DNA of 32,465 nucleotides from a virus: positions 1-32,465 of IMG/VR virus record IMGVR_UViG_3300036845_000375. One strand, 5' to 3'. This document shows, one piece after another, positions 5,234-29,450 of this stretch. A model generated the notes under the pieces. It saw nothing but the letters and a program-made list of their open reading frames with translations, ran no database searches and had not been told where the DNA came from. The position numbers and the translations under genes were made by a program. How positions within the stretch are numbered: position 1 is the first letter of the stretch; every line of letters starts with the position of its first letter.

Positions 5234-6553
5234 ATGACGATTCGCATTCACATCGGCGATTGCAGGGAGGTGCTCGCGAGCATGGCTGCCGAGAGCGTGC
5301 ATATGGTTTGCACCAGCCCGCCCTACTGGGGCCTCCGCGATTACGGCGTTCCGCCGACGATCTGGGGTAATCCTGAGTGTGCGCACGAGTGGGGGAATCA
5401 GATTGTCAGCAATGATCCGAAAGACCGCTATCGCCGTCATACTCTTGCATGGCAATCCGGCGGACAACCATCTGAGATTAAGAACGCAACTCAGGGTGCC
5501 TTCTGCCGCTGCGGCGCGTGGCGTGGCGCGCTCGGGCTCGAACCGACCTACACCGCCTATGTCGAGCACGTAGTCGAGGTGTTTCGCGCGGTGTGGCGCG
5601 TACTGCGTCCGGACGGCACGCTGTGGCTCAATCTCGGCAGCGGGTACCAGGACAAACAACTTGATGGCGTGCCATGGCGAGTTGCCTTTGCGCTTCAAGC
5701 TGACGGCTGGTGGCTGCGGCAGGACATAATTTACAGCAAGCCGAATCCGATGCCAGAAAGCATAACCGATAGATGCACCAAGGCGCATGAGTATCTGTTC
5801 ATGTTAACCAAAAGCGCGCGCTATTTTTATGATGCGGAGGCAATCAAGGAACCAGCCGTTGCTGAAAACGAGCATGATTTGACTGGGCAAGGCTATTTTG
5901 CGCCGGGGCAGACGCCGCATCGTGGCAATCGAGGTCGCGCCAGCGGAAACAAGTCGCACAAAGGCGTCGCCGAATACGAGCGCTCCGATTCCGAGGAGCA
6001 TCGGACAAAAGCGGGGTTGCTCAATATCGCCAGCACTGCTTATGCCATGCGCAACAAGCGTTCTGTGTGGGAGATCGCGACCCAGAGTTTCCCGGACGCT
6101 CATTTCGCAACCATGCCGCCCGCGCTGGTCGAGCCGTGCATTCTTGCGGGGACGAGCGCAAGGGGATGCTGCGCGAAGTGCGGGGTGCCGTTGGTGCGTG
6201 ATATTAAACGTGTCGACAAAGGATGGGACGGCAGCAAGTATGGCGAGGCTACGCTTGCCGCGAGCGGCGGCGTTATCACCGGCGGCACGGCCATATCCAC
6301 ACTCGGTAGCGGCAACGGCAAACTCGTGGGGCAACGCGAGACACTCGGCTGGGCGCCGTCCTGCAAGTGCGATGCCGCGGTCGTTCCGTGCACGGTTCTC
6401 GATCCTTTTTTCGGAGCCGGTACGGTTGGTCTTGTTGCGGATCGTCTTCAGCGCAATTGCGTCGGGATCGAGCTTAACCCTGCCTATGCGACAATGGCGG
6501 AGCGTCGGATCGAGAGCGACGGCGGCATGTTTGCCAACGTCGATCTGGCATGA
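5234..6553 (+). CDS. Phage DNA methyltransferase, beta class (N4-cytosine or N6-adenine)
   Basis: Motif IV TSPPYW lies at residues 27-32 and motif I DPFFGAGT at about 390-397, so the order is IV first and SAM-binding last, as in beta-class amino-methyltransferases. IGDCREVL at the N-terminus and CVGIELNPAYATMAERRI at the C-terminus are typical of the N6_N4_Mtase family. Between them is a target-recognition region with a probable zinc site (CCAKCG and later CKC). It transfers methyl from S-adenosylmethionine to an exocyclic amino group of A or C. No cognate restriction gene is adjacent, so it is likely an orphan enzyme protecting phage DNA. TSPPY does not decide between m4C and m6A. GAAGG sits just before the ATG. 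About 440 aa is normal for phage members. Confidence 0.92.
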   Translation: MTIRIHIGDCREVLASMAAESVHMVCTSPPYWGLRDYGVPPTIWGNPECAHEWGNQIVSNDPKDRYRRHTLAWQSGGQPSEIKNATQGAFCRCGAWRGALGLEPTYTAYVEHVVEVFRAVWRVLRPDGTLWLNLGSGYQDKQLDGVPWRVAFALQADGWWLRQDIIYSKPNPMPESITDRCTKAHEYLFMLTKSARYFYDAEAIKEPAVAENEHDLTGQGYFAPGQTPHRGNRGRASGNKSHKGVAEYERSDSEEHRTKAGLLNIASTAYAMRNKRSVWEIATQSFPDAHFATMPPALVEPCILAGTSARGCCAKCGVPLVRDIKRVDKGWDGSKYGEATLAASGGVITGGTAISTLGSGNGKLVGQRETLGWAPSCKCDAAVVPCTVLDPFFGAGTVGLVADRLQRNCVGIELNPAYATMAERRIESDGGMFANVDLA

Positions 6554-8945: not shown

Positions 8946-9070
8946 TATTTAATCTCCTCTTTGGTTGGTCCCCATGTGATTTCAAAGTCAGCGCTGGTTC
9001 TTAGACCACAAACGCGATGATTCCGCGACGGCCGGTCCACAGAAAAATTACCAACATTTAACCATTTAGC

Positions 9071-9135
9071 ATCCACAGCGGGACAAATAGTCCTTGCAGA
9101 GTGCCAGAATGGCACTATATTAGGGATGTAAGAGA
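9071..9135 (+). promoter_or_regulatory. Promoter A with 17-bp palindrome between -35 and -10
   Basis: TTGCAG (9094-9099) and TATATT (9116-9121) are 16 bases apart. The spacer is the perfect inverted repeat AGTGCC-N5-GGCACT (9100-9116). The 28 bases before it (9071-9098) and the 20 from the -10 onward are identical to promoter B at 12828. A repressor binding the palindrome would block RNA polymerase. The expected start is around 9128. It probably drives the 9.35-12.8 kb operon. Confidence 0.75.
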
Positions 9136-9268: not shown

Positions 9269-9331
9269 AGTGAAACGCGGCTTAGCCGCGTTCGACAGGA
9301 TTGACCGCCTGTCGCTGACGATCAGGTCAAA
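9269..9331 (+). repeat. 63-bp structured repeat, copy 1
   Basis: It contains AACGCGG-CTTAG-CCGCGTT, then GACAGG...CCTGTC, then TGAC...GTCA. TTGACC (9301-9306 region) can alternatively pair with GGTCAA at the end. It is nearly identical to copies at 9805, 10098 and 11062. It lies directly upstream of the ribosome site of the gene at 9353. Confidence 0.9.
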
Positions 9332-9352
9332 CCAATAAACGGAGTAACGAAA

Positions 9353-9637: not shown

Positions 9638-9805
9638 ATGAATGTCAAGTTTGACCTGTTCGAAGTCTTCCAGATTGTCGCAACCTGCGCGTTTAGCGCG
9701 AACCCCTGGCTTTCGCCGGGCGGCGCAGTCGGGGCGATCGTCGGCGGCGTCGCCGCCGTGACAGTGATCTTGATCTGCAAGAAGATAACGTCGAGCTTTT
9801 CCTAA
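9638..9805 (+). CDS. Small single-pass membrane protein (55 aa)
   Basis: AGGAG at 9626-9630 precedes the ATG by a good distance. MNVKFDLFEVFQIVATCAFS leads into a Gly/Ala/Val-rich helix (GAVGAIVGGVAAVTVILIC) and ends KKITSSFS. It is one probable transmembrane segment, perhaps two weak ones. The stop TAA touches the second 63-bp repeat. It is shorter than usual annotation cut-offs but has a clear start signal. Confidence 0.6.
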   Translation: MNVKFDLFEVFQIVATCAFSANPWLSPGGAVGAIVGGVAAVTVILICKKITSSFS

Positions 9806-9867
9806 GTGAAACGCGGCTAAGCCGCGTTCGACAGGATTGACCGCCTGTCGCTGATGATCAGGTCAAA
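9805..9867 (+). repeat. 63-bp structured repeat, copy 2
   Basis: It begins on the last base of the preceding stop codon. It differs from copy 1 only in the first hairpin loop (CTAAG instead of CTTAG) and in TGATGATC instead of TGACGATC. Confidence 0.9.
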
Positions 9868-9906
9868 ACCACGATTAGGTCCGAGGAATTCAATCAGGAG
9901 TCAATG

Positions 9907-10098
9907 ATGAAGACCAACGTTACCGAGATCGCGTCCTACTTTAATGCGGACACCGGCCTGCGGGCCGACATCTTCACGGTCGGCAATTCCAAGCGCGTTC
10001 GCTTGGTCGATACCGACTGCGGCGAGGTGCTGCCGACGATCAAGTTTTTCATGTCGCTCGAACAAGCGCACGCCTACGCGCGGAAATGCGTGTCTTAA
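9907..10098 (+). CDS. Small hypothetical protein (63 aa)
   Basis: The upstream GGAGTCA gives a six-base spacing to ATG 9907, matching neighbouring genes. ATG 9904 would be only three bases from the GGAG. The product MKTNVTEIASYFNADTGLRA continues with strands FTVGNSKRVRLVDTDCG and a C-terminal helix (SLEQAHAYARKCVS). A small alpha/beta fold is likely. No family recognised. Its stop lies against the third 63-bp repeat. Confidence 0.65.
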   Translation: MKTNVTEIASYFNADTGLRADIFTVGNSKRVRLVDTDCGEVLPTIKFFMSLEQAHAYARKCVS

Positions 10099-10160
10099 GT
10101 GAAACGCGGCTAAGCCGCGTTCGACAGGATTGACCGCCTGTCGCTGACGATCAGGTCAAA
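10098..10160 (+). repeat. 63-bp structured repeat, copy 3
   Basis: It begins on the last base of the preceding TAA. It carries the CTAAG loop and TGACGATC. GGAGTCAAAC and the ATG of the next gene follow directly. Confidence 0.9.
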
Positions 10161-10173
10161 GCTGGAGTCAAAC

Positions 10174-10617
10174 ATGATGAAACTCTTGAAAGGCCATATC
10201 TCACCCGAAACTGCGTACGTTGTGGAATCGTACCCTTATTCCTTCCGGCTGCGCTGCCGCATCCGGTACTGGCTCGAACACAAGAATGGCAAGGGCTTCA
10301 GGTTTGTCAGCCAAACGACAAATCCCAAGCGCGGCGATGTGTGGAACAAGCCGAAGGCCAGCACATATTGCCGCTTTGGCGGCGCCATGTATCTCGACGA
10401 CGCCGAGCATGTGCATTGGTCAGGGTTGACCGAGTACTGCTCCGGCGCCGAGGCGGCTTCCTGGCAGCAAACCTATGGCGCGGCTGTGCCGGAAGCGGGC
10501 CGCGAGGAGCTTAACCGATGGGTGGCCGCCAAGGTCGCCTATGACGCTGCGCGCAAGAACGGCGATCCGCTCAATGTTGGATTGCCCGAGGCGCGGAAAG
10601 CTTATTTCGAAGCGTGA
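10174..10617 (+). CDS. Hypothetical phage protein (147 aa)
   Basis: GGAGTCAAAC (10164-10173) gives six bases between GGAG and the ATG. The protein begins MMKLLKGHISPETAYVVESY, with a beta-like basic part (PYSFRLRCRIRYWLEHKNGK; RFVSQTTNPKR) that could bind nucleic acid. A C-terminal helical part (EELNRWVAAKVAYDAARKNG) follows. There is no catalytic motif that I can name. I believe similar proteins occur in rhizobial phages, but cannot check. A GC-rich hairpin follows the gene. Confidence 0.7.
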   Translation: MMKLLKGHISPETAYVVESYPYSFRLRCRIRYWLEHKNGKGFRFVSQTTNPKRGDVWNKPKASTYCRFGGAMYLDDAEHVHWSGLTEYCSGAEAASWQQTYGAAVPEAGREELNRWVAAKVAYDAARKNGDPLNVGLPEARKAYFEA

Positions 10618-11061: not shown

Positions 11062-11124
11062 AGTGAAACGCGGCTTAGCCGCGTTCGACAGGATTGACCG
11101 CCTGTCGCTGACGATCAGGTCAAA
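11062..11124 (+). repeat. 63-bp structured repeat, copy 4
   Basis: Identical to copy 1 at 9269 over the whole unit, as far as I can align by eye. Unlike copies 2 and 3 it lies about 60 bases after the previous stop. GGAGTCAAAA and an ATG follow. Confidence 0.9.
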
Positions 11125-11143
11125 CCACGGAACGGAGTCAAAA

Positions 11144-11364: not shown

Positions 11365-11991
11365 ATGAATACCTTCCGCAAAATCGACGGCCAATGGGCC
11401 GTGCAGTGTGACGCCGAGCAGCCGCTCGGAACGAGCGTGACGGTCACGACGCGCAGCGGCCAAGCCAAACAGGTCAAGGTCGGCGCGCTGATCGAGAGCA
11501 ACAGCTACGGCCACACTTACGCGGTCGCGGTGGACAAGGCCCCGACAGCCACGGCTGTGGTCGGCGATCTTTCCGGCGTGCTCGCGCTCTTTGCTCACGC
11601 GAAGCAGCACCTCAAATACCCCGCGATCGTTTTGAGCGTGCCGGATGCCGGGATGGCGATCCGGCTCAATGTCGCGGGCGAGCGCGCCCAGGTGCCGGGC
11701 TCGATCACGGTGCTTGAATCCAATGGCACGGGCAGCGATGGCCGTGAATGGCTCGGCCGCATCACGACGGACGGGACCTACCAGCCCTCGCGAAGCGCCA
11801 ATGGCCGGACCACTGCGATCACCTCGCGGCTTCGCGCATTCGCATGCGAGCCCGCCAAGGTGGCCGCCGAGCACGGCAAGCTGACCGGTGCGTGCTGTTT
11901 TTGTAACAGATCGCTCAGCGACGACCGCAGCACGGCGGTCGGCTACGGCCGGACTTGTTCCAAGCATTTCGGCCTGCCATGGGGAGCGTGA
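11365..11991 (+). CDS. Protein with C-terminal DUF6011-like zinc motif (208 aa)
   Basis: CGGAGTCAGCTCT precedes the ATG. The N-terminal 130 residues are beta-rich (SVTVTTRSGQAKQVKVGALI). The last 35 residues read CCFCNRSLSDDRSTAVGYGR then TCSKHFGLPWG. This is the CxxC-x-x-L-D/S..S..VGYG..C...G..WG pattern I know as DUF6011, a short treble-clef-like zinc motif in phage and bacterial proteins. DNA or protein binding is possible. The gene ends in a GTGA overlapping a possible start of the next. Confidence 0.8.
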   Translation: MNTFRKIDGQWAVQCDAEQPLGTSVTVTTRSGQAKQVKVGALIESNSYGHTYAVAVDKAPTATAVVGDLSGVLALFAHAKQHLKYPAIVLSVPDAGMAIRLNVAGERAQVPGSITVLESNGTGSDGREWLGRITTDGTYQPSRSANGRTTAITSRLRAFACEPAKVAAEHGKLTGACCFCNRSLSDDRSTAVGYGRTCSKHFGLPWGA

Positions 11992-11996
11992 TCCAC

Positions 11997-12221
11997 ATGG
12001 CGAAATCTCTAACTGAGGAGACACAACGCAAGGCGTGGGACGAATTACTGCTTGATATCGAGCACCGCACCGAACAGTTGCGGCAAATGAAGGGTGCATC
12101 GCATGAGAAATTGCGTCAGATGAAAACTTACGAGCCTTGGCGTTTGGCATTCGCCGGGATGACCGCGGGTGCAGCTTTGTTTGCGGCCGGAGCTGCATTC
12201 GTCAAAGTGTTCGGAGGGTAA
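11997..12221 (+). CDS. Helical protein with C-terminal membrane anchor (74 aa), paralogue of 15514
   Basis: GGGGAG (11981-11986) precedes ATG 11997; GTG 11988 is an alternative. A charged helix (ELLLDIEHRTEQLRQMKGAS) is followed by PWRLAFAGMTAGAALFAAGA and ends AFVKVFGG. The protein at 15514 ends in GMTTGAALFAAGAAFIKLLG, so the two are clear paralogues with divergent N-terminal helices. I infer an inner-membrane anchor holding a cytosolic coiled coil. Confidence 0.7.
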   Translation: MAKSLTEETQRKAWDELLLDIEHRTEQLRQMKGASHEKLRQMKTYEPWRLAFAGMTAGAALFAAGAAFVKVFGG

Positions 12222-12556: not shown

Positions 12557-12769
12557 ATGGCAGAATCAGAAGTTGATCACGCTATGAAACAAGAATTGCT
12601 GCGGCTCGACATCTTGTTGCGCCGCAAGCAAGTCTTTTGGGACACGCCGCGCGGCGTTCTGCTTGTTGTCGCCACCACGGCAGCTTTGGTTGCAGCCGTG
12701 GCTGGTTTCATCGGGTTCAAGATTGGCCAGACACCACCTCAGCCGATCGTGATCCAAATACCGAAGTGA
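12557..12769 (+). CDS. Small membrane protein (70 aa)
   Basis: The ATG lies just after the previous stop. A charged helix (DHAMKQELLRLDILLRRKQV) is followed by a transmembrane segment (GVLLVVATTAALVAAVAGFI) and a short polar tail (GQTPPQPIVIQIPK). It has the layout of several small anchored helical proteins in this window. It is the last gene before the terminator at 12791. Confidence 0.65.
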   Translation: MAESEVDHAMKQELLRLDILLRRKQVFWDTPRGVLLVVATTAALVAAVAGFIGFKIGQTPPQPIVIQIPK

Positions 12770-12825: not shown

Positions 12826-12827
12826 CC

Positions 12828-12893
12828 ATCCACAGCGGGACAAATAGTCCTTGCATGGTGACGTTCTGTCACCTATATTAGGGATGTAAGAGA
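12828..12893 (+). promoter_or_regulatory. Promoter B with variant palindrome between -35 and -10
   Basis: TTGCAT (12851-12856) and TATATT (12874-12879) are 17 bases apart. The spacer is exactly the inverted repeat GGTGAC-N5-GTCACC (12857-12873). Flanks match promoter A over 28 bases before and 20 bases from the -10. Relative to promoter A both arms have changed at two positions in a way that keeps the symmetry. It probably drives the MoxR/VWA operon to 20.46 kb. Confidence 0.75.
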
Positions 12894-13151: not shown

Positions 13152-13202
13152 ATGAAGAGCGGCAATTCCCCTCAAACCCCGACCCGGAGTCATCCACCAT
13201 GA
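13152..13202 (+). CDS. Putative leader peptide (16 aa) coupled to the MoxR gene
   Basis: CCGGAGTCTCAA precedes ATG 13152, and the frame reads MKSGNSPQTPTRSHPP then TGA. The stop overlaps the ATG of the ATPase gene (ATGA at 13199-13202). A second GGAGTCA lies within the ORF and serves the downstream gene. A Pro-Pro end before a stop is a known context for slow translation termination, so an attenuating or coupling role is plausible. This is inferred from sequence alone. Confidence 0.45.
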   Translation: MKSGNSPQTPTRSHPP

Positions 13203-14218
13203 ACGGAATTACACAACACGAAGTCAACATCGCCGAGGCCGCAACGCTACTTGAGATTCTCACCGACGCTGGCGACTCGGTGATGCTATGGGGAACATAT
13301 GGTATCGGGAAGACCGACATCGTTCACCAGCTCGGCGCTCGCAAGAACCGCAAGGTTCTCGAATTCCACGCCGCGCTGCGCGAGACTGTTGATCTTCGCG
13401 GCATCCCGGTCCCCGATCTCGTGACCGGCAAGACCCGATGGCTTGTGCCCGACGAGCTACCGCAAGCCGAGCGCGATGGCGAGTTTGGCTATCTGTTCGC
13501 CGACGAGATCAACCAAGCGAACCCGCAGATGCAAGCCATTCTTGGCGGGCTCTTTCTTTACGGGACGGTTGGCGACTATCGACTGCCGCCCGGCTGGCGC
13601 GTCATCGGCGCAGGCAATCGCATCAGCGACAAAGCGGCGGCGCAGCGCATGCCGACGCATCTCCGCAATCGACTCGCGCACCTCTACGTCACGCCCGACG
13701 TTGATGCGTGGTGCAAGTGGGCGAACGCGAACGATGTGCCTGCCGAGATCGTCGCCTACATCCGCCTGCGGAGAGAGAACCTGCACGTCCCGTTCAAAGG
13801 GGACGAAAACGCGACGCCAACGCCGCGGTCTTGGACGAAGGCATCGAAGTACATCAACGCCCCCGCAAAGCACCGATTGCGGCTGTTCGCGTCGCTGGTC
13901 GGCGATGCTTACGCGGCCGACCTTGAGGCGTTTCTCGAACTGTATCGCTCGCTCGGATCGCTCGACGACATCATCGCCGACCCGGACGGCGCGCCGGTCC
14001 CGACCGAACCGTCGTGCAGGTTCGCGGTCTGCACCGGGCTCGGCCGCATGGCCACGCGCAAGTCGCTGCCGAGCATAATCACCTATGCGAAGCGACTGCC
14101 GCGCGAGAGCGAAATCCTGGTCGTGCACGATGCGACAACGCGCGACGAGAAGCTAAAGGAAACCCAGGCTTACGGAGCTTGGGCTTGCGCGAACCAAGAC
14201 ATCATCCTTCAGATGTGA
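13199..14218 (+). CDS. MoxR-type AAA+ ATPase (339 aa)
   Basis: Walker A is GTYGIGKTD (residues 32-40, Lys38), Walker B YLFADE (98-103), sensor 1 GAGN (137-140), with conserved Arg residues following (THLRNR). The line DEINQANPQMQAILGGLF is typical of MoxR-like ATPases, which remodel partner proteins as ring oligomers and normally work with a VWA-domain protein. Such a partner is encoded 1.5 kb downstream (15749), with a helical protein between. The C-terminal 120 residues are helical. It is likely cytosolic. CGGAGTCATCCACC precedes the ATG. Length is normal for the family. The substrate is unknown. Confidence 0.9.
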   Translation: MNGITQHEVNIAEAATLLEILTDAGDSVMLWGTYGIGKTDIVHQLGARKNRKVLEFHAALRETVDLRGIPVPDLVTGKTRWLVPDELPQAERDGEFGYLFADEINQANPQMQAILGGLFLYGTVGDYRLPPGWRVIGAGNRISDKAAAQRMPTHLRNRLAHLYVTPDVDAWCKWANANDVPAEIVAYIRLRRENLHVPFKGDENATPTPRSWTKASKYINAPAKHRLRLFASLVGDAYAADLEAFLELYRSLGSLDDIIADPDGAPVPTEPSCRFAVCTGLGRMATRKSLPSIITYAKRLPRESEILVVHDATTRDEKLKETQAYGAWACANQDIILQM

Positions 14219-14227
14219 ACAGCGAAG

Positions 14228-14248
14228 CGGGCACGCATGTCGTGCCCG
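14228..14248 (+). promoter_or_regulatory. Post-stop hairpin of the AGCGAAGCG family
   Basis: AGCGAAG, then CGGGCACG (14228-14235) pairing with CGTGCCCG (14241-14248), then TCACGGTGTTCATTC. The flanks AGCGAAGCG and CACGGTGTTCAT recur around the hairpins at 17429 and 17910, although the stem sequences differ. Confidence 0.6.
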
Positions 14249-14304
14249 TCACGGTGTTCATTCCCGAGCATCGAAAACCCCCAACCTAAAATCGGAGTCA
14301 TCCA

Positions 14305-15174
14305 ATGTCCAAGATTGTCACCCCGCTTGCCCGCAAGGCTGTTCTCGTGTCCGTCAAGATTTGCCAATGGTCGGCCAGAAAGCTCGACCGCAAAGTCACC
14401 GACGAGGTGAACCGCGCACACAATGCATCGAAAGATGCCGGACGGTTCAACAAGCTCCTGATCGAGGCCGAGCGCCTCGCCAAGCTCACATCGCTGGTTT
14501 CGGCGGCGCGCACACTGCACTACACGCTGACGCGGCCATGGGCCGATGAGGGCCCGCGCATTCTGCCGAACAAGCTATTCGCCAAATTTAGCGATGAATT
14601 TCGTGTGCTCAAGCGCGAGTTCGAACAGGCTGCGGATGAATTCGCCAGCGGCTATCCGCAATTCGTCGAGGAGCGCAAGCGGGCGCTCAACGGCTTGTTT
14701 AACGATGCCGACTATCCCGGCGCCAATGAGATTCGCAGCCGGTTTAAACTGGAGATGACCATCCTGCCGTTCCCCGACGTGACGGATTTTCGCAGCGATC
14801 TTGACGAGGACACGGTCGCCGACATCAAGGCCGAGATGGCCGAAACGTCGGATCGGGTTGTCGATAATGCGATGCGCCACACGACGGCACAGATCGTTGA
14901 CATCGTCGGCCACATGGCAGCCAAGCTCAGAGAGTTCGGCGGCGGCAGTAGCTACTTCAAAAACTCGCTGGTCGACAATGTCCGCGAATTGGCCGAACTG
15001 CTGCCCGCGTTCAACCTGACCGATGACGCAAAGCTCGCGGCGATCACGGCCCGCATTCAGCGCGAATTGTGCGTCGAGGATGCTAGTTCGCTTCGCGAGA
15101 ACGAAGGTGCCCGCGAGGCGGTCGCCAAATCGGCCGACGAGATCGTCGCCGAAGTCGAGAAAATCTTCGCGTAA
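14305..15174 (+). CDS. Helical phage protein between MoxR and VWA genes (289 aa)
   Basis: CGGAGTCATCCA precedes the ATG. It starts MSKIVTPLARKAVLVSVKIC and is almost wholly helical and charged. Diagnostic pieces are QWSARKLDRKVTDEVNRAH, HYTLTRPWADEGPRILPN, LFNDADYPGANEIRSRF and LPFPDVTDFR. Large helical proteins with this start (VLVSVKICQWSARK) are what I expect beside MoxR ATPases in phages, loosely resembling DUF3150 proteins. No catalytic residues are evident. An adaptor or substrate role in the ATPase/VWA module is inferred from position. Confidence 0.8.
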   Translation: MSKIVTPLARKAVLVSVKICQWSARKLDRKVTDEVNRAHNASKDAGRFNKLLIEAERLAKLTSLVSAARTLHYTLTRPWADEGPRILPNKLFAKFSDEFRVLKREFEQAADEFASGYPQFVEERKRALNGLFNDADYPGANEIRSRFKLEMTILPFPDVTDFRSDLDEDTVADIKAEMAETSDRVVDNAMRHTTAQIVDIVGHMAAKLREFGGGSSYFKNSLVDNVRELAELLPAFNLTDDAKLAAITARIQRELCVEDASSLRENEGAREAVAKSADEIVAEVEKIFA

Positions 15175-15179
15175 TCGAG

Positions 15180-15204
15180 TGCGGTGCGCCCCACGCGTGC
15201 CGCA
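15180..15204 (+). promoter_or_regulatory. Post-stop hairpin
   Basis: TGCGGTGCGC (15180-15189) can pair with GCGTGCCGCA (15195-15204), using two G-U wobbles, loop of five bases. It sits just after a stop codon and upstream of AAAGGAGTCAGCAC. Confidence 0.5.
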
Positions 15205-15228
15205 TTCACCAACAAAAGGAGTCAGCAC

Positions 15229-15504
15229 ATGTTTTCCTATGATGAATGGGTTTCTGAGCAAACCGAAAAAGTAAGATCGGCTGTCAATCGGCTTGCCATG
15301 TCCGGCATTTACGAAGGTGCTGTCCATGTGATGCCGTCAAACGGAGCAACGCAGGGCGAGTTGATCGTTTGCACCGAGCCATGCGTGTTGCCGGTGCTGG
15401 CGTTCCGGCAATACGGAACGCGTGTTGCGGCGGTACCGTCTTCCCATCTGTGGAAATTCATTTGGGAAGTCTGTCGTCACGAACCAATTTGCCCGACGGA
15501 GTGA
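15229..15504 (+). CDS. Hypothetical protein (91 aa)
   Basis: AAAGGAGTCAGCAC precedes ATG 15229. The product MFSYDEWVSEQTEKVRSAVN is followed by HVMPSNGATQGELIVCTEPC, an alternation of helix and strand with three Cys (one near the end, CRHEPICPTE, adding a fourth). No family recognised. It lies inside the ATPase/VWA operon and may be an accessory part of it or only a passenger. Confidence 0.65.
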   Translation: MFSYDEWVSEQTEKVRSAVNRLAMSGIYEGAVHVMPSNGATQGELIVCTEPCVLPVLAFRQYGTRVAAVPSSHLWKFIWEVCRHEPICPTE

Positions 15505-15513
15505 ACTAAAAAA

Positions 15514-15711
15514 ATGTCTGACCCAAACGACGATCTCCCGCAGATCAATCTGCGGGAGAAGCTCGCGCATATCGACCAGATGCTCGCCGATCACGATCGC
15601 AAGCGTCAGGAAATTCGCTATGCGCCATGGCTCGCTGCACTGTCTGGCATGACGACAGGGGCTGCTTTGTTCGCGGCGGGAGCCGCGTTCATAAAGCTGC
15701 TCGGAGGTTGA
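15514..15711 (+). CDS. Helical protein with C-terminal membrane anchor (65 aa), paralogue of 11997
   Basis: A weak GGAGTGA lies before the ATG. The N-terminal helix (LREKLAHIDQMLADHDRKRQ) is followed by PWLAALSGMTTGAALFAAGA and ends AFIKLLGG. The membrane segment is almost the same as in the protein at 11997. Two copies in successive operons, each under its own version of the same promoter, suggest duplication of a module. Confidence 0.7.
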   Translation: MSDPNDDLPQINLREKLAHIDQMLADHDRKRQEIRYAPWLAALSGMTTGAALFAAGAAFIKLLGG

Positions 15712-15748
15712 AACTGTACCAAATCAAAAACGGAAAGGAGTCAGCACA

Positions 15749-17266
15749 ATGAACGCGATTACCAATATCGAACGGGAAGCAACAGCGCGCGTCATGAAGG
15801 CGCGCGCCGAGCTGATACTGGCGCGCCGCTTCTACGGCGTGCTGGTGTCCAACGTCGAACCGATCTGTTCCCGGCAGGTTCGCACGATGGCAACAAACAG
15901 CAAGCAGCACTTTTTCAATCCCGACTTCATCGAGAAGCTGACGCAAACCCAGCTTCTCGCGGTGCAAGCTCATGAAAGCGAGCACGATGCGCGCCATCAT
16001 TCGACGCGCCGCGGCTGGCGCGACCCGCTGAAATGGAACATAGCCTGCGATTATGCGATCAACCTCGACATCATCGACCAGGGCTTTGATCTCCCGGAAG
16101 GCGCTTTGATTGATGAGCGCTTCCGCAACATGGGGGCCGAAGATATCTATCGGTGCCGCGAGCTTGACGAGGAGCGGGAGCGCCGCGAACAAGAGCGGCA
16201 ACAGCAACAGCCGGAGCCGACACCCAAGCCCGAGCCGGACGAAAACGATGGCGAGCCGGACGAGGACGAGCCGGACGAACCCGAGCCCGATGGCGACGAT
16301 AACGGCGATGGCGACGATAACGGCGAGCAACCGCCGCCTGAAGATGATAAGAGTGAGGATGAGGCCGGTTATCAACCCGACGAAACCGGCAACGAGACTG
16401 GCGAAGCTGATGGCAACACCAGCGACGACAGTTCGGCGGCTACGGCCGCCGATATGCAGGGCGAGGCGCGGCAGGGCAAGGCAGGGCGGGGCAAGGCAGG
16501 GCTAGACCAGGCCGGTGGAAGCGAGGCGGATGATGAGTCCGCCTCGCCTTTTACTTCCTGCGGCGAGGTGCTCGACGCCCCAGCCGATGGCGATGGCGAC
16601 CTCGCCGAGCAAGACCAGCGATGGGAGCGGATCGTTCGCCAAGCCGCATCGATGGCGCGCGCCGTCGGCCAGTGTCCAGGCCACATCTCGCGAGACATCG
16701 AGCGAGCGAACAACGTGCCGCAGGATTGGCGCGAGGTGCTTCGCACGTGGTTCGATCAGGGCGCGCTCCGACGCGAGACATGGGAGCGGCCGAACCGCCG
16801 CTTTGCCGGATCGGGCCTCTATCTGCCCGGCAATCGCAAGGACGGCGTCAACAAGGTCGCCATCCTTGTGGACACGAGCGGCTCGATGGATGCGAAGGCG
16901 CTCGCTTGCGTCCGTAACGAGGCGCAAGCCGCGCTCGACGACGGCGTGATCGACGAAGTTATCGTGATTTTTGGCGACACGCGGGTAACCCGAGTCGATA
17001 CATATTGCACGGGCGACGAGTTGGAATTCGATCCCCGCGGCGGCGGCGGCACGCTGTTAGTGCCGCTGTTTAAATACGTCGAGGAGCACTTCGATGATGT
17101 CAATCTGATCGTAACTTTTACTGACATGGAATTCCGTGATCTTCATTCCATGCCAGCGCCTTCGCAACCGGTGCTGTTCGCCGTCACCGGCTACCCGGAT
17201 CGTGTTCGCCAGCACATCGCAAGCGCGCCATGGAACGCGCCGGGGATCGATGTCGGGGCCCATTGA
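15749..17266 (+). CDS. HExxH metallopeptidase-like / VWA-domain protein (DUF2201-type, 505 aa)
   Basis: AAAGGAGTCAGCACA precedes the ATG. Residues 1-130 form a DUF2201_N-like domain with HESEH at 75-79, the HExxH zinc-peptidase signature. Residues 145-235 are an acidic Pro/Glu/Asp linker (EPDEDEPDEPEPDGDDNG). A pentamer-repeat insert follows at 236-252. The C-terminal VWA-like domain has KVAILVDTSGSMD (MIDAS motif DxSGS from about 375) and TFTDMEF later. The pairing with the MoxR ATPase encoded upstream is the classical MoxR/VWA arrangement; metal-dependent binding of a target is expected. Whether the HExxH site is catalytic is not known for this family. Cytosolic, no signal peptide. Confidence 0.88.
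   Translation: MNAITNIEREATARVMKARAELILARRFYGVLVSNVEPICSRQVRTMATNSKQHFFNPDFIEKLTQTQLLAVQAHESEHDARHHSTRRGWRDPLKWNIACDYAINLDIIDQGFDLPEGALIDERFRNMGAEDIYRCRELDEERERREQERQQQQPEPTPKPEPDENDGEPDEDEPDEPEPDGDDNGDGDDNGEQPPPEDDKSEDEAGYQPDETGNETGEADGNTSDDSSAATAADMQGEARQGKAGRGKAGLDQAGGSEADDESASPFTSCGEVLDAPADGDGDLAEQDQRWERIVRQAASMARAVGQCPGHISRDIERANNVPQDWREVLRTWFDQGALRRETWERPNRRFAGSGLYLPGNRKDGVNKVAILVDTSGSMDAKALACVRNEAQAALDDGVIDEVIVIFGDTRVTRVDTYCTGDELEFDPRGGGGTLLVPLFKYVEEHFDDVNLIVTFTDMEFRDLHSMPAPSQPVLFAVTGYPDRVRQHIASAPWNAPGIDVGAH
16457..16503 (+). repeat. GGCNN pentamer array inside the VWA coding sequence
   Basis: The run GGGCGAGGCGCGGCAGGGCA and onward has the same degenerate unit as the large arrays and is translated in frame as GEARQGKAGRGKAG. 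It lies in the acidic low-complexity linker, where the basic Arg/Lys/Gly residues stand out. The reading frame is preserved. Confidence 0.75.
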
Positions 17267-17298: not shown

Positions 17299-17372
17299 GC
17301 TTGTCCGGCCATGCCTCGCCAAGCCACGCCTCGCCAGGCCTCGCCGTACCAAGCCGCGCCACGCCATGCCTT
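17299..17372 (-). repeat. Inverted GCCNN pentamer array
   Basis: GCCATGCCTCGCCAAGCCAC and onward is the same degenerate pentamer in the opposite orientation (G-rich on the minus strand), in the gap after the VWA gene. The following 100 bases (17373-17504) carry no gene, only a hairpin at 17429 and the next ribosome site. Confidence 0.85.
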
Positions 17373-17428
17373 AACAATCTTTCCATACAGAGAAATCGCT
17401 CAATTGGAAAGAGCAGTGAGCAGCGAAG

Positions 17429-17449
17429 CGGCGCCCCATGCGGGCGCCG
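17429..17449 (+). promoter_or_regulatory. Hairpin of the AGCGAAGCG family
   Basis: AGCAGCGAAG, then CGGCGCCC (17429-17436), loop CATGC, GGGCGCCG (17442-17449), then TCACG. The flanks match the hairpins at 14228 and 17910 while the stem differs. Confidence 0.6.
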
Positions 17450-17504
17450 TCACGCTGCCTACCGCAGCGAACCGTCCCACAGGGACGTAGCAAGGAGAAA
17501 TATC

Positions 17505-17773: not shown

Positions 17774-17893
17774 ATGGCCTCGTTCGAAAACCGTCTTGCC
17801 AACCTTGAAGCCAAGCTTCTGCTCATAACGTGGATGGTTGGCTTCAATCTCGTTCTAACCCTTGCCGTCGTCGGCAGATTATTCAGCAGATAA
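17774..17893 (+). CDS. Small coiled-coil/membrane peptide (39 aa)
   Basis: The ATG lies two bases after the preceding stop. MASFENRLANLEAKLLLITW is an amphipathic helix merging into a transmembrane segment (MVGFNLVLTLAVVGRLF), ending SR. The shape resembles small phage membrane proteins. It is below usual length cut-offs; tight placement in the operon is the main support. Confidence 0.55.
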   Translation: MASFENRLANLEAKLLLITWMVGFNLVLTLAVVGRLFSR

Positions 17894-17909
17894 GGAATGA
17901 GCAGCGCAG

Positions 17910-17927
17910 CACGGCCCACGGGCCGTG
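17910..17927 (+). promoter_or_regulatory. Hairpin of the AGCGAAGCG family
   Basis: GAGCAGCGCAG, then CACGGCC (17910-17916) pairing with GGCCGTG (17921-17927), then TCACGGTGTTCATGCGAGCAT, which itself can pair CGGTG with a CACCG further on. Flanks are shared with 14228 and 17429. Confidence 0.6.
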
Positions 17928-17988
17928 TCACGGTGTTCATGCGAGCATCACCGCGCTTGCCACGCGGGTAAATCTAGGAGTCCACCTC

Positions 17989-18741
17989 ATGAAATTCGAA
18001 CTACTCAATCGCTACTCGGGTGTTATTCAGGTTACGGCCGAAATCGAGTGTGCTGATAACGCGCCGACCAGCATCAAGACTGGCCTCGCCGTCATATGGG
18101 CTTACCGTGAGGGTGCTGATCTCATGGGTACTGATCTCAGGAGAGCTGATCTCACTTTGGCCAATCTCGCAGGGGCCAACCTCATGGGTACTGATCTCAT
18201 GAACGCCAATCTCGCGGGAGCTAATTTCACCAGGACCAATCTCGCGGGTGCTGATCTCATGAACGCCAATCTCAGTGAGACCAATTTCACTGGGGCTAAT
18301 CTCACGGACGCCTATTTCGAGAACGCCAATCTCATGGGGGCCGATCTCACAGGGGCCGATCTCACGAATGTAGACACCATAATTCCCAACGATGAAATCC
18401 CCGTCGTGCCGAATATCGATGCGGCCATTTTATCGGAGATCGAGGCTGGTGGCATTCTCGACATGTACACGTGGCACGGCTCACCCGGATATTGGTGCGG
18501 TACGACACATTGCCGGGCAGGATGGGCAATCCACCTTGCTGGCGCGAAAGGCAAGGAACTTGAGGACAAGTACGGCGCACAGATAGCCGGGATGCTAATC
18601 TATATCGCATCGCGGCCGGGCCCGGCGCCGTGGTTTTTCGATACAACTGAGAACGCGCTGGCGGACATCAGGAAATGCGCGGCCGAACAACAAAGCGAGC
18701 CTGATCGCTGCAACGTCACAAACAAAGGAGTCAGCAAATGA
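17989..18741 (+). CDS. Pentapeptide-repeat protein (250 aa)
   Basis: TAGGAGTCCACCTC precedes ATG 17989. Residues about 40-130 are an unbroken run of A(D/N)LxG pentapeptides (GADLMGTDLRRADLTLANLA and onward), expected to fold as a right-handed quadrilateral beta-helix. The underlying DNA is a visible 15/30-base repeat (GATCTCATG, AATCTCGCG units). The C-terminal domain has HGSPGYWCGTTHCRAGWAIH, with two Cys and several His, and continues GMLIYIASRPGPAPWFFDTT. Proteins with this repeat can mimic DNA (for example gyrase inhibitors), but most have unknown roles. Probably cytosolic. Confidence 0.88.
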   Translation: MKFELLNRYSGVIQVTAEIECADNAPTSIKTGLAVIWAYREGADLMGTDLRRADLTLANLAGANLMGTDLMNANLAGANFTRTNLAGADLMNANLSETNFTGANLTDAYFENANLMGADLTGADLTNVDTIIPNDEIPVVPNIDAAILSEIEAGGILDMYTWHGSPGYWCGTTHCRAGWAIHLAGAKGKELEDKYGAQIAGMLIYIASRPGPAPWFFDTTENALADIRKCAAEQQSEPDRCNVTNKGVSK

Positions 18742-28769: not shown

Positions 28770-28825
28770 GGATACCTATAAAGTTCAGCGGCCGACTGGG
28801 TCGTGTCCAGGATCGGCAAGACGTA

Positions 28826-28903
28826 AGGCATGGTTAGGCGTGGCAAGGCGCGGCGTGGCAGGGCGTGGCGGGGCCAGGCGAGGCTGGCTTGGCAGAGGAG
28901 CGG
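28826..28903 (+). repeat. GGCNN pentamer array between baseplate genes
   Basis: GGCATGGTTAGGCGTGGCAA and onward is the same pentamer unit. It is G-rich on the + strand, that is, opposite to the transcription of the tail operon. It occupies most of the 159-base gap 28770-28928 between the baseplate J and GP46 genes. Confidence 0.9.
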
Positions 28904-28928
28904 CGATCCACAAAATCGCCGTTCTTTT

Positions 28929-29450
28929 TCATGGATAGTAATTGATCATCGGCACGGTTGGGATTTCGTCCCACAAAATCTGATATCGCAGATCGACCGC
29001 CAGCACGGGACCGCGATAAAGTTGCACCAGCGCGTCAATTCTTTCCTGCCCAACTCGAATCGCCGCGACGTACATCTGCGAGGCGGCCTTCAACTCGATG
29101 AACGGCTGAATTGCCTCGCGGATATATTGCTCGACCCGCGTCACTGTCGCTCCATCCGCTGCTTGCGAGCCGACGATCTTCGATCGCCGCAACAGCCACA
29201 GCCGCGAGCCGATCGGCCAGCCGCCCCAAATCTCCTGAGCGTCGAGATCGCCCCACCAGCCAGCCCGATCGGTCGAATCCGGATCGGGCAGGATGTCGCT
29301 CGCAAGCGCCAGCCGATTGGTGCCGAGCGCGACGATCACTGCCGTAGCGAGCGCCTCGCTCGAATCCAGCGTGCCGTCGCCCAGGAGGACGAAATCGATG
29401 TTGATGTCAGCCGGAAATATCCCGTACTGAACCAGCCTGATATCCGGCAT
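28929..29450 (-). CDS. Phage GP46 family baseplate protein (173 aa)
   Basis: MPDIRLVQYGIFPADINIDF, LGTNRLALASDILPDPDSTD, RAGWWGD and IWGGWPIGSRLWLLRRSKI make this a clear GP46 family member (PF07409). The family has lysozyme-free wedge/hub roles beside the spike in Mu-like baseplates. It is somewhat longer than Mu gp46. It is upstream of the baseplate J gene, as in Mu. The ribosome site is weak. Confidence 0.9.
   Translation of the reverse strand: MPDIRLVQYGIFPADINIDFVLLGDGTLDSSEALATAVIVALGTNRLALASDILPDPDSTDRAGWWGDLDAQEIWGGWPIGSRLWLLRRSKIVGSQAADGATVTRVEQYIREAIQPFIELKAASQMYVAAIRVGQERIDALVQLYRGPVLAVDLRYQILWDEIPTVPMINYYP

Follow-up and report, generated by a model that had tools for sequence, protein, structure and literature searches.

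The virus record IMGVR_UViG_3300036845_000375 (32,465 bases, linear and probably a fragment; the whole of it is called the window here) carries on its + strand, at 13199-17266, genes for a MoxR-type AAA+ ATPase, a DUF3150 protein and an HExxH metallopeptidase-acidic linker-VWA protein. On balance, and with modest confidence, we read this locus as a phage version of an AAA+ remodelling module that consists of three proteins, occurs on phages and conjugative elements, and acts early and inside the cell in the establishment of element DNA. This reading is built on the parts and their motifs, on an invariant trio, on independent losses of the peptidase site, and on locations beside early and DNA genes and on plasmids. 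DUF3150 is the invariant third component beside the ATPase/VWA pair in three-part loci.

In 82 of 82 phage and chromosomal DUF3150 loci whose flanks each span 6 kb or more, the ATPase, DUF3150 and VWA genes share one strand. DUF3150 itself was the query that brought up most of these loci, and therefore the linkage shows that DUF3150 implies the ATPase/VWA pair, not the reverse; they also include repeat finds of the same virus and are not all independent, and a non-redundant set of 90 loci agrees with them. In that set the trio members were present in 90, 89 and 87 loci, against 16 loci for the most frequent other neighbour family; some neighbour clusters are larger, but they overlap the trio (distance 0) and we take them for antisense or alternative frames of the trio genes. 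All three genes were found in 133 of 139 DUF3150 loci, and the remaining 6 are interrupted by contig ends. Moreover, distance matrices of the three proteins correlate with r of 0.82-0.88 (0 of 2000 permutations were as high), and gene order within the trio has changed at least 6 times along the tree. The three open reading frames are retained in relatives with 56-73% identity, showing that they are real and conserved.

N4, phage G, RaK2, phiFa, XC38 and others hold the ATPase/VWA pair without DUF3150. A search of N4, phage G, RaK2, phiFa, XC38 and SABI for a DUF3150 that had been overlooked gave no significant match, and none was found in six further two-part loci. In the tree of 90 concatenated ATPase-VWA sequences, 12 two-part members are split from 78 three-part members with support of 0.966, and the window falls inside the three-part clade and not among the pairs that lack DUF3150.

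The original prediction of a MoxR ATPase and a DUF2201-type metallopeptidase-like VWA protein is borne out by matches to phrog_1297, AAA_5, DUF2201_N and DUF2201, and the HESEH and MIDAS (metal ion-dependent adhesion site) motifs that it pointed to in the VWA protein are present and conserved in relatives (Table 1). The AAA_5 score of the ATPase is 23.9 bits (cutoff 22), its P-loop domain has Walker A, Walker B, sensor 1 and sensor 2, and its best PDB profile matches are midasin, CbbQ and NorQ. Among 76 diverse relatives, the Walker A lysine, N140 of sensor 1 and R210 are each present in 76, D102 of Walker B in 75, and position 103 is E, or D in 10. PF11348 scores 21.1 bits on the window DUF3150 protein, just below the Pfam gathering score of 24.9, and matches 49 of its 85 relatives (E<=1e-3). 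This protein had been described as a large helical one; its AlphaFold2 model does have two long helices of ~43 residues each, but with a small beta part it is not purely helical, and the best PDB match in the search for a known fold reached only E 0.08. W22, K50, R69, P138 and N237 of this protein do not vary among its relatives.

The AlphaFold2 model of the VWA protein (predicted local distance difference test score, pLDDT, 85.2) has a helical peptidase domain at the N terminus, joined by a disordered acidic linker to a VWA domain, and its C-terminal half matches VWA structures in Foldseek. Thus, an HExxH metallopeptidase domain and a VWA fold with a complete MIDAS are both found. PHROGs (phrog_1314) and many RefSeq phage records, such as that of N4 gp25 (L018:5165-6307), label this family 'HNH endonuclease'. 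We rejected that function for the window protein: its Pfam matches are to a metallopeptidase domain and VWA, with none to HNH, which suggests that the family has been mislabelled.

The HExxH centre has been lost in 7 of 84 relatives of the VWA protein, 4 of which lack both histidines, and Asp101 is lost in exactly these 4. This joint loss suggests that Asp101 is the third metal ligand. H84 and R87 are invariant across the relatives and probably serve some other role than metal ligation. The 4 relatives without the histidines and Asp101 fall into two separate tree groups, one a Rhizobium element and the other integrated elements in uncultured Alpha- and Gammaproteobacteria. Judged by the sequences, the peptidase site is lost independently and several times. 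The near-universal retention of the ATPase and MIDAS residues beside repeated loss of HExxH suggests that proteolysis may be optional, while ATP use and MIDAS binding would not be. Natural peptidase-dead copies may in this way point to the core activity. In the uncultured gammaproteobacterial chromosome OY282433.1 we noted an integrated element in five nearly identical copies (L055, L056, L057, L060 and L062), with a relaxase, a RepB primase, a ParB-like gene and a trio whose peptidase site is dead; L058 and L059 (OY282353.1) were noted alongside them.

Terminase genes lie on the strand opposite to the trio in 21 of 21 phage loci that show a terminase, and portal genes in 9 of 9 that show a portal; in 9 loci a sliding clamp follows the trio on the same strand. 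N4-type pairs have helicase and polymerase genes next to them. The neighbours of the trio on plasmids and integrated elements are ParB-like, PRTRC, type IV secretion, relaxase, primase and TraI/TraD genes, and recT, ssb and toprim genes adjoin it in loci L039, L040 and L042. No capsid, portal, terminase or tail gene was found around the whole circle of plasmid pATCC31433 among its listed genes, the gene table being incomplete by design. The ATPase matches 800 records and the VWA protein 499, among them hundreds of sequenced phages, and relatives of DUF3150 were found on >1,100 plasmid records, 969 of which are typed conjugative.

A remote branch on IncP-7, IncC and related conjugative plasmids also has a MoxR protein, DUF3150 and an HExxH-acidic linker-MIDAS protein, often near ssb, recT or bet and exo. 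Gene order is ATPase...ssb-bet-exo-DUF3150-VWA on IncC and ssb-recT-exo-MoxR-DUF3150-VWA on another plasmid. Profile comparison of the three proteins between the plasmid and phage branches gave E of 1e-5, 1e-6 and 4e-9, with the DUF3150 link at 1.2e-5. In IncC plasmids and SXT, a bet-exo operon is under a transfer-activated promoter (PMC4542580, PMC4344509), and the gene order suggests that the IncC trio may share it.

According to our model, the MoxR ATPase would form an ATP-driven ring, the VWA domain would dock on this ring or on the substrate via its MIDAS metal, and DUF3150 would be the constant partner, bridging or presenting the substrate, while the N-terminal zinc peptidase would usually cut what the ring pulls on. 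The machine would act early in the cell, as element DNA enters, replicates and recombines, and would not be a component of the virion. Complex formation and the order of these steps are part of the proposal, and the target would be a DNA-bound or DNA-processing protein complex of the element or the host. A wider form of this model, which we put forward tentatively and as a possibility only, is that the trio is one ancient DNA-establishment machine of phages, PRTRC plasmids and IncC/IncP-7-type elements that frees incoming or replicating DNA from bound host protein; since some copies have a dead peptidase, its core would then be non-proteolytic remodelling.

Several observations weigh against the favoured reading. 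N4-type pairs work without DUF3150, so that some lineages can do without it. Only some of the loci have ParB, recT and ssb as neighbours, the gene table of the plasmid mentioned above is incomplete, and in RaK2 the ATPase/VWA pair lies beside virion genes. In addition, deletion of bet, exo, s067, s068 and s070 in SXT lowers transfer at most 10-fold (PMC2791158), and therefore the trio, if among the deleted genes, is non-essential there.

A narrower form of the favoured explanation is counter-defence, with the machine taking apart or cleaving a restriction or abortive-infection complex of the host as this encounters the incoming DNA. Phages and conjugative elements both carry the trio and face the same defences, its distribution is patchy and its expression probably early, and a Lar-type restriction-alleviation gene and methylases occur on the same plasmid or nearby. 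However, the pair is a core one of N4-like phages across many hosts, unlike most anti-defence genes, and none of the three window proteins has a match among PADLOC defence families. We consider this role unlikely, and the host-complex remodelling or counter-defence function originally suggested for the operon stays a hypothesis.

An involvement in virion assembly or maturation, with the ATPase/VWA pair folding virion parts and the peptidase processing them, was proposed for jumbo phages by Iyer 2021 in analogy with Acidianus two-tailed virus (PMC7824862). The p618 and p892 proteins of that virus and the position of the RaK2 pair among virion genes are in accordance with this proposal. On the other hand, N4 gp24 and gp25 are middle genes, and the trio occurs on conjugative plasmids, with no virion gene among those listed for pATCC31433. 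Because of this plasmid without listed capsid genes and of phage terminase and portal genes on the opposite strand, virion assembly is improbable as a general function, and the phage-plasmid link weakens the standing proposal.

The original prediction also saw here a chaperone-like machine with relatives in conflict systems; MoxR/VWA pairs are indeed chaperone-like, but the test for the bpMoxR ternary family failed, with E 0.23 and 10.9 bits for the window ATPase under PF20030 against a cutoff of 27. VMAP/bpMoxR ternary conflict systems resemble the window in having MoxR, VWA and a third protein (PMC7159879), but their third protein is another one and their effectors are variable. In a conflict or exclusion system of this kind, the trio would be the sensor and the peptidase a harmful effector; the window VWA protein has no fused C-terminal effector domain, the components lack effector-like variation, and the site that would be the effector has died repeatedly in copies that keep everything else, which makes this explanation very improbable. 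Equally doubtful is a metal- or cofactor-insertion machine of the CobST, NorQD or magnesium-chelatase type, for which the ATPase profile matches to CbbQ and NorQ structures, the NorD or cobalamin biosynthesis annotations of plasmid relatives and the metal-insertion role of NorQD (PMC13036017) speak, but chelatase large-subunit and metalloenzyme genes are not among the trio neighbours in the 90-locus set and HExxH is usually present.

The ATPase/VWA pair is already known, and what is new is the third part, DUF3150. RavA-ViaA, CbbQ-CbbO and NorQ-NorD resemble the window in combining a MoxR AAA+ ring with a VWA partner; they are cellular maturation systems, and we know of none with DUF3150 or a fused HExxH peptidase. 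The pair has been described in N4-like phages (PMC4193335, PMC2784036), where it belongs to the core gene set, and in jumbo phages as MoxR and a peptidase-vWA protein (PMC7824862). N4 gp24/gp25 (the Schitoviridae core pair) and the jumbo-phage pair are, as in the window, a homologous AAA+ ATPase and DUF2201_N-VWA protein encoded by same-strand neighbours; gp24 and gp25 are middle genes (PMC4193335), and in N4-like phages the pair sits among the early/middle genes; unlike the window locus, N4-type pairs have no DUF3150 nearby. MoxR/VWA genes have been reported on pCAR1 (PMC2642839), whose authors found genes of ORF100-103 in R478, Rts1, SXT and R391. ORF101-103 of this IncP-7 plasmid, like IncC and related plasmids, have the same three parts as the window. 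The plasmid branch is very distant, with an acidic LEDIRIE after HExxH instead of ACDxxIN and a VWA protein classed as NorD/VWA_CoxE-like and not as DUF2201. Our search of openly available papers found no mention of DUF3150. The constant presence of DUF3150 as third partner, its link between phages and plasmids and the copies with a dead peptidase thus appear to be undescribed in the literature searched. The original prediction had missed the membership of the pair in the N4 gp24/gp25 family, the status of the helical protein as an invariant third partner and the occurrence of the trio on conjugative plasmids. Phage and plasmid forms tied through DUF3150 can offer tractable model systems.

Table 1. 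Coordinates of the trio, its motifs and nearby putative regulatory elements in the window
Feature	Position	Strand	Details
Promoter-like block	12827..12879	+	inverted repeat GGAC-AAATA-GTCC; TTGCAT 12851-12856; dyad GGTGAC-GTTCT-GTCACC 12857-12873; TATATT 12874-12879
MoxR-type AAA+ ATPase, 339 aa	13199..14218	+	phrog_1297 E 7.8e-76; Pfam AAA_5 E 4.7e-5
Walker A GTYGIGKT, residues 32-39	13292..13315	+	conserved in relatives
Walker B DE, residues 102-103	13502..13507	+	conserved in relatives
Intergenic hairpin, ATPase/DUF3150 genes	14220..14253	+	flanks common with 17421-17454, stem different
DUF3150 protein, 289 aa	14305..15174	+	PF11348 E 2e-4; AlphaFold2 pLDDT 94.1
Metallopeptidase-acidic linker-VWA protein, 505 aa	15749..17266	+	PF13203 (DUF2201_N) E 6.3e-35; PF09967 (DUF2201) E 5.1e-12
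HESEH zinc-peptidase motif, residues 75-79	15971..15985	+	H75/E76/H79 intact in 77/84 relatives
Asp101, probable third metal ligand	16049..16051	+	present in 80/84 relatives
MIDAS DTSGS, residues 375-379	16871..16885	+	completed by T435 and D459; intact in 83/83 sequences reaching MIDAS
Second intergenic hairpin copy, just past VWA gene	17421..17454	+	flanks common with 14220-14253, stem different

Regulation of the trio together with the early region is suggested by a repeated promoter-like block. The block at 9070-9121, which precedes the first + strand early genes, is repeated upstream of the ATPase gene, with 9070-9103 94% identical over 34 nt, and the 17-mer GACAAATAGTCCTTGCA occurs in the window only at these two sites (0.01 expected). 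Each block has a TTGCA hexamer, a spacer of 16-17 nt with an inverted repeat, and TATATT. The spacer dyads of the two blocks differ in sequence yet retain their pairing, as expected of operators. The repeated block fits co-regulation from a predicted promoter, and the regulated promoter originally proposed for the operon is probable on this indirect support. A scan with the sigma-70 consensus found sites no commoner than in shuffles and did not pick out the repeated block.

The two intergenic hairpins in Table 1 have the common flanks CAGCGAAGCG...GTCACG, which gave 2 matches in the window and 0 expected in shuffles; their stems differ and both are still paired. A further hairpin lies at ~15178-15209. 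Rfam gave no match across the window, and the window proteins had none in NCBIfam.

Two small genes lie between the DUF3150 and VWA genes (15184/15232-15504 and 15514-15711). They had been placed in one operon with the trio; we reject them as parts of the module because they are not conserved: no fetched locus holds a relative of the first, and the second has one relative elsewhere and one paralogue inside the window. A 16-codon upstream frame overlapping the ATPase start was likewise rejected as a leader peptide, similar frames being found in only 9 of 35 relatives and with unrelated sequences. The products of 11955-12221, 12557-12769 and 15514-15711 share a similar C-terminal hydrophobic helix and are repeated small membrane proteins.

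Genes on the + strand at ~9.3-20.5 kb include DUF6011, pentapeptide-repeat and helix-turn-helix genes, and tail genes occupy the - strand from 20.7 kb onward. A DNA methyltransferase gene (5234-6553), to the left of these + strand genes, and the pentapeptide-repeat protein gene (17830-18741) are on a common strand, and they may conceivably be protective or act by DNA mimicry. A 77-nt intergenic element is present in four copies of 84-96% identity (9269-9345, 9805-9881, 10098-10174 and 11062-11138); it can form two hairpins, and every copy is just ahead of a + strand gene. In addition, degenerate G+C-rich repeats with a five-base phase (GGCNN-like) occur in intergenic regions on both strands at 1-900, 2540-2860, 17310-17370 and 28780-28930, and one more apparently lies inside the VWA gene, in its linker part at about 16460-16520.

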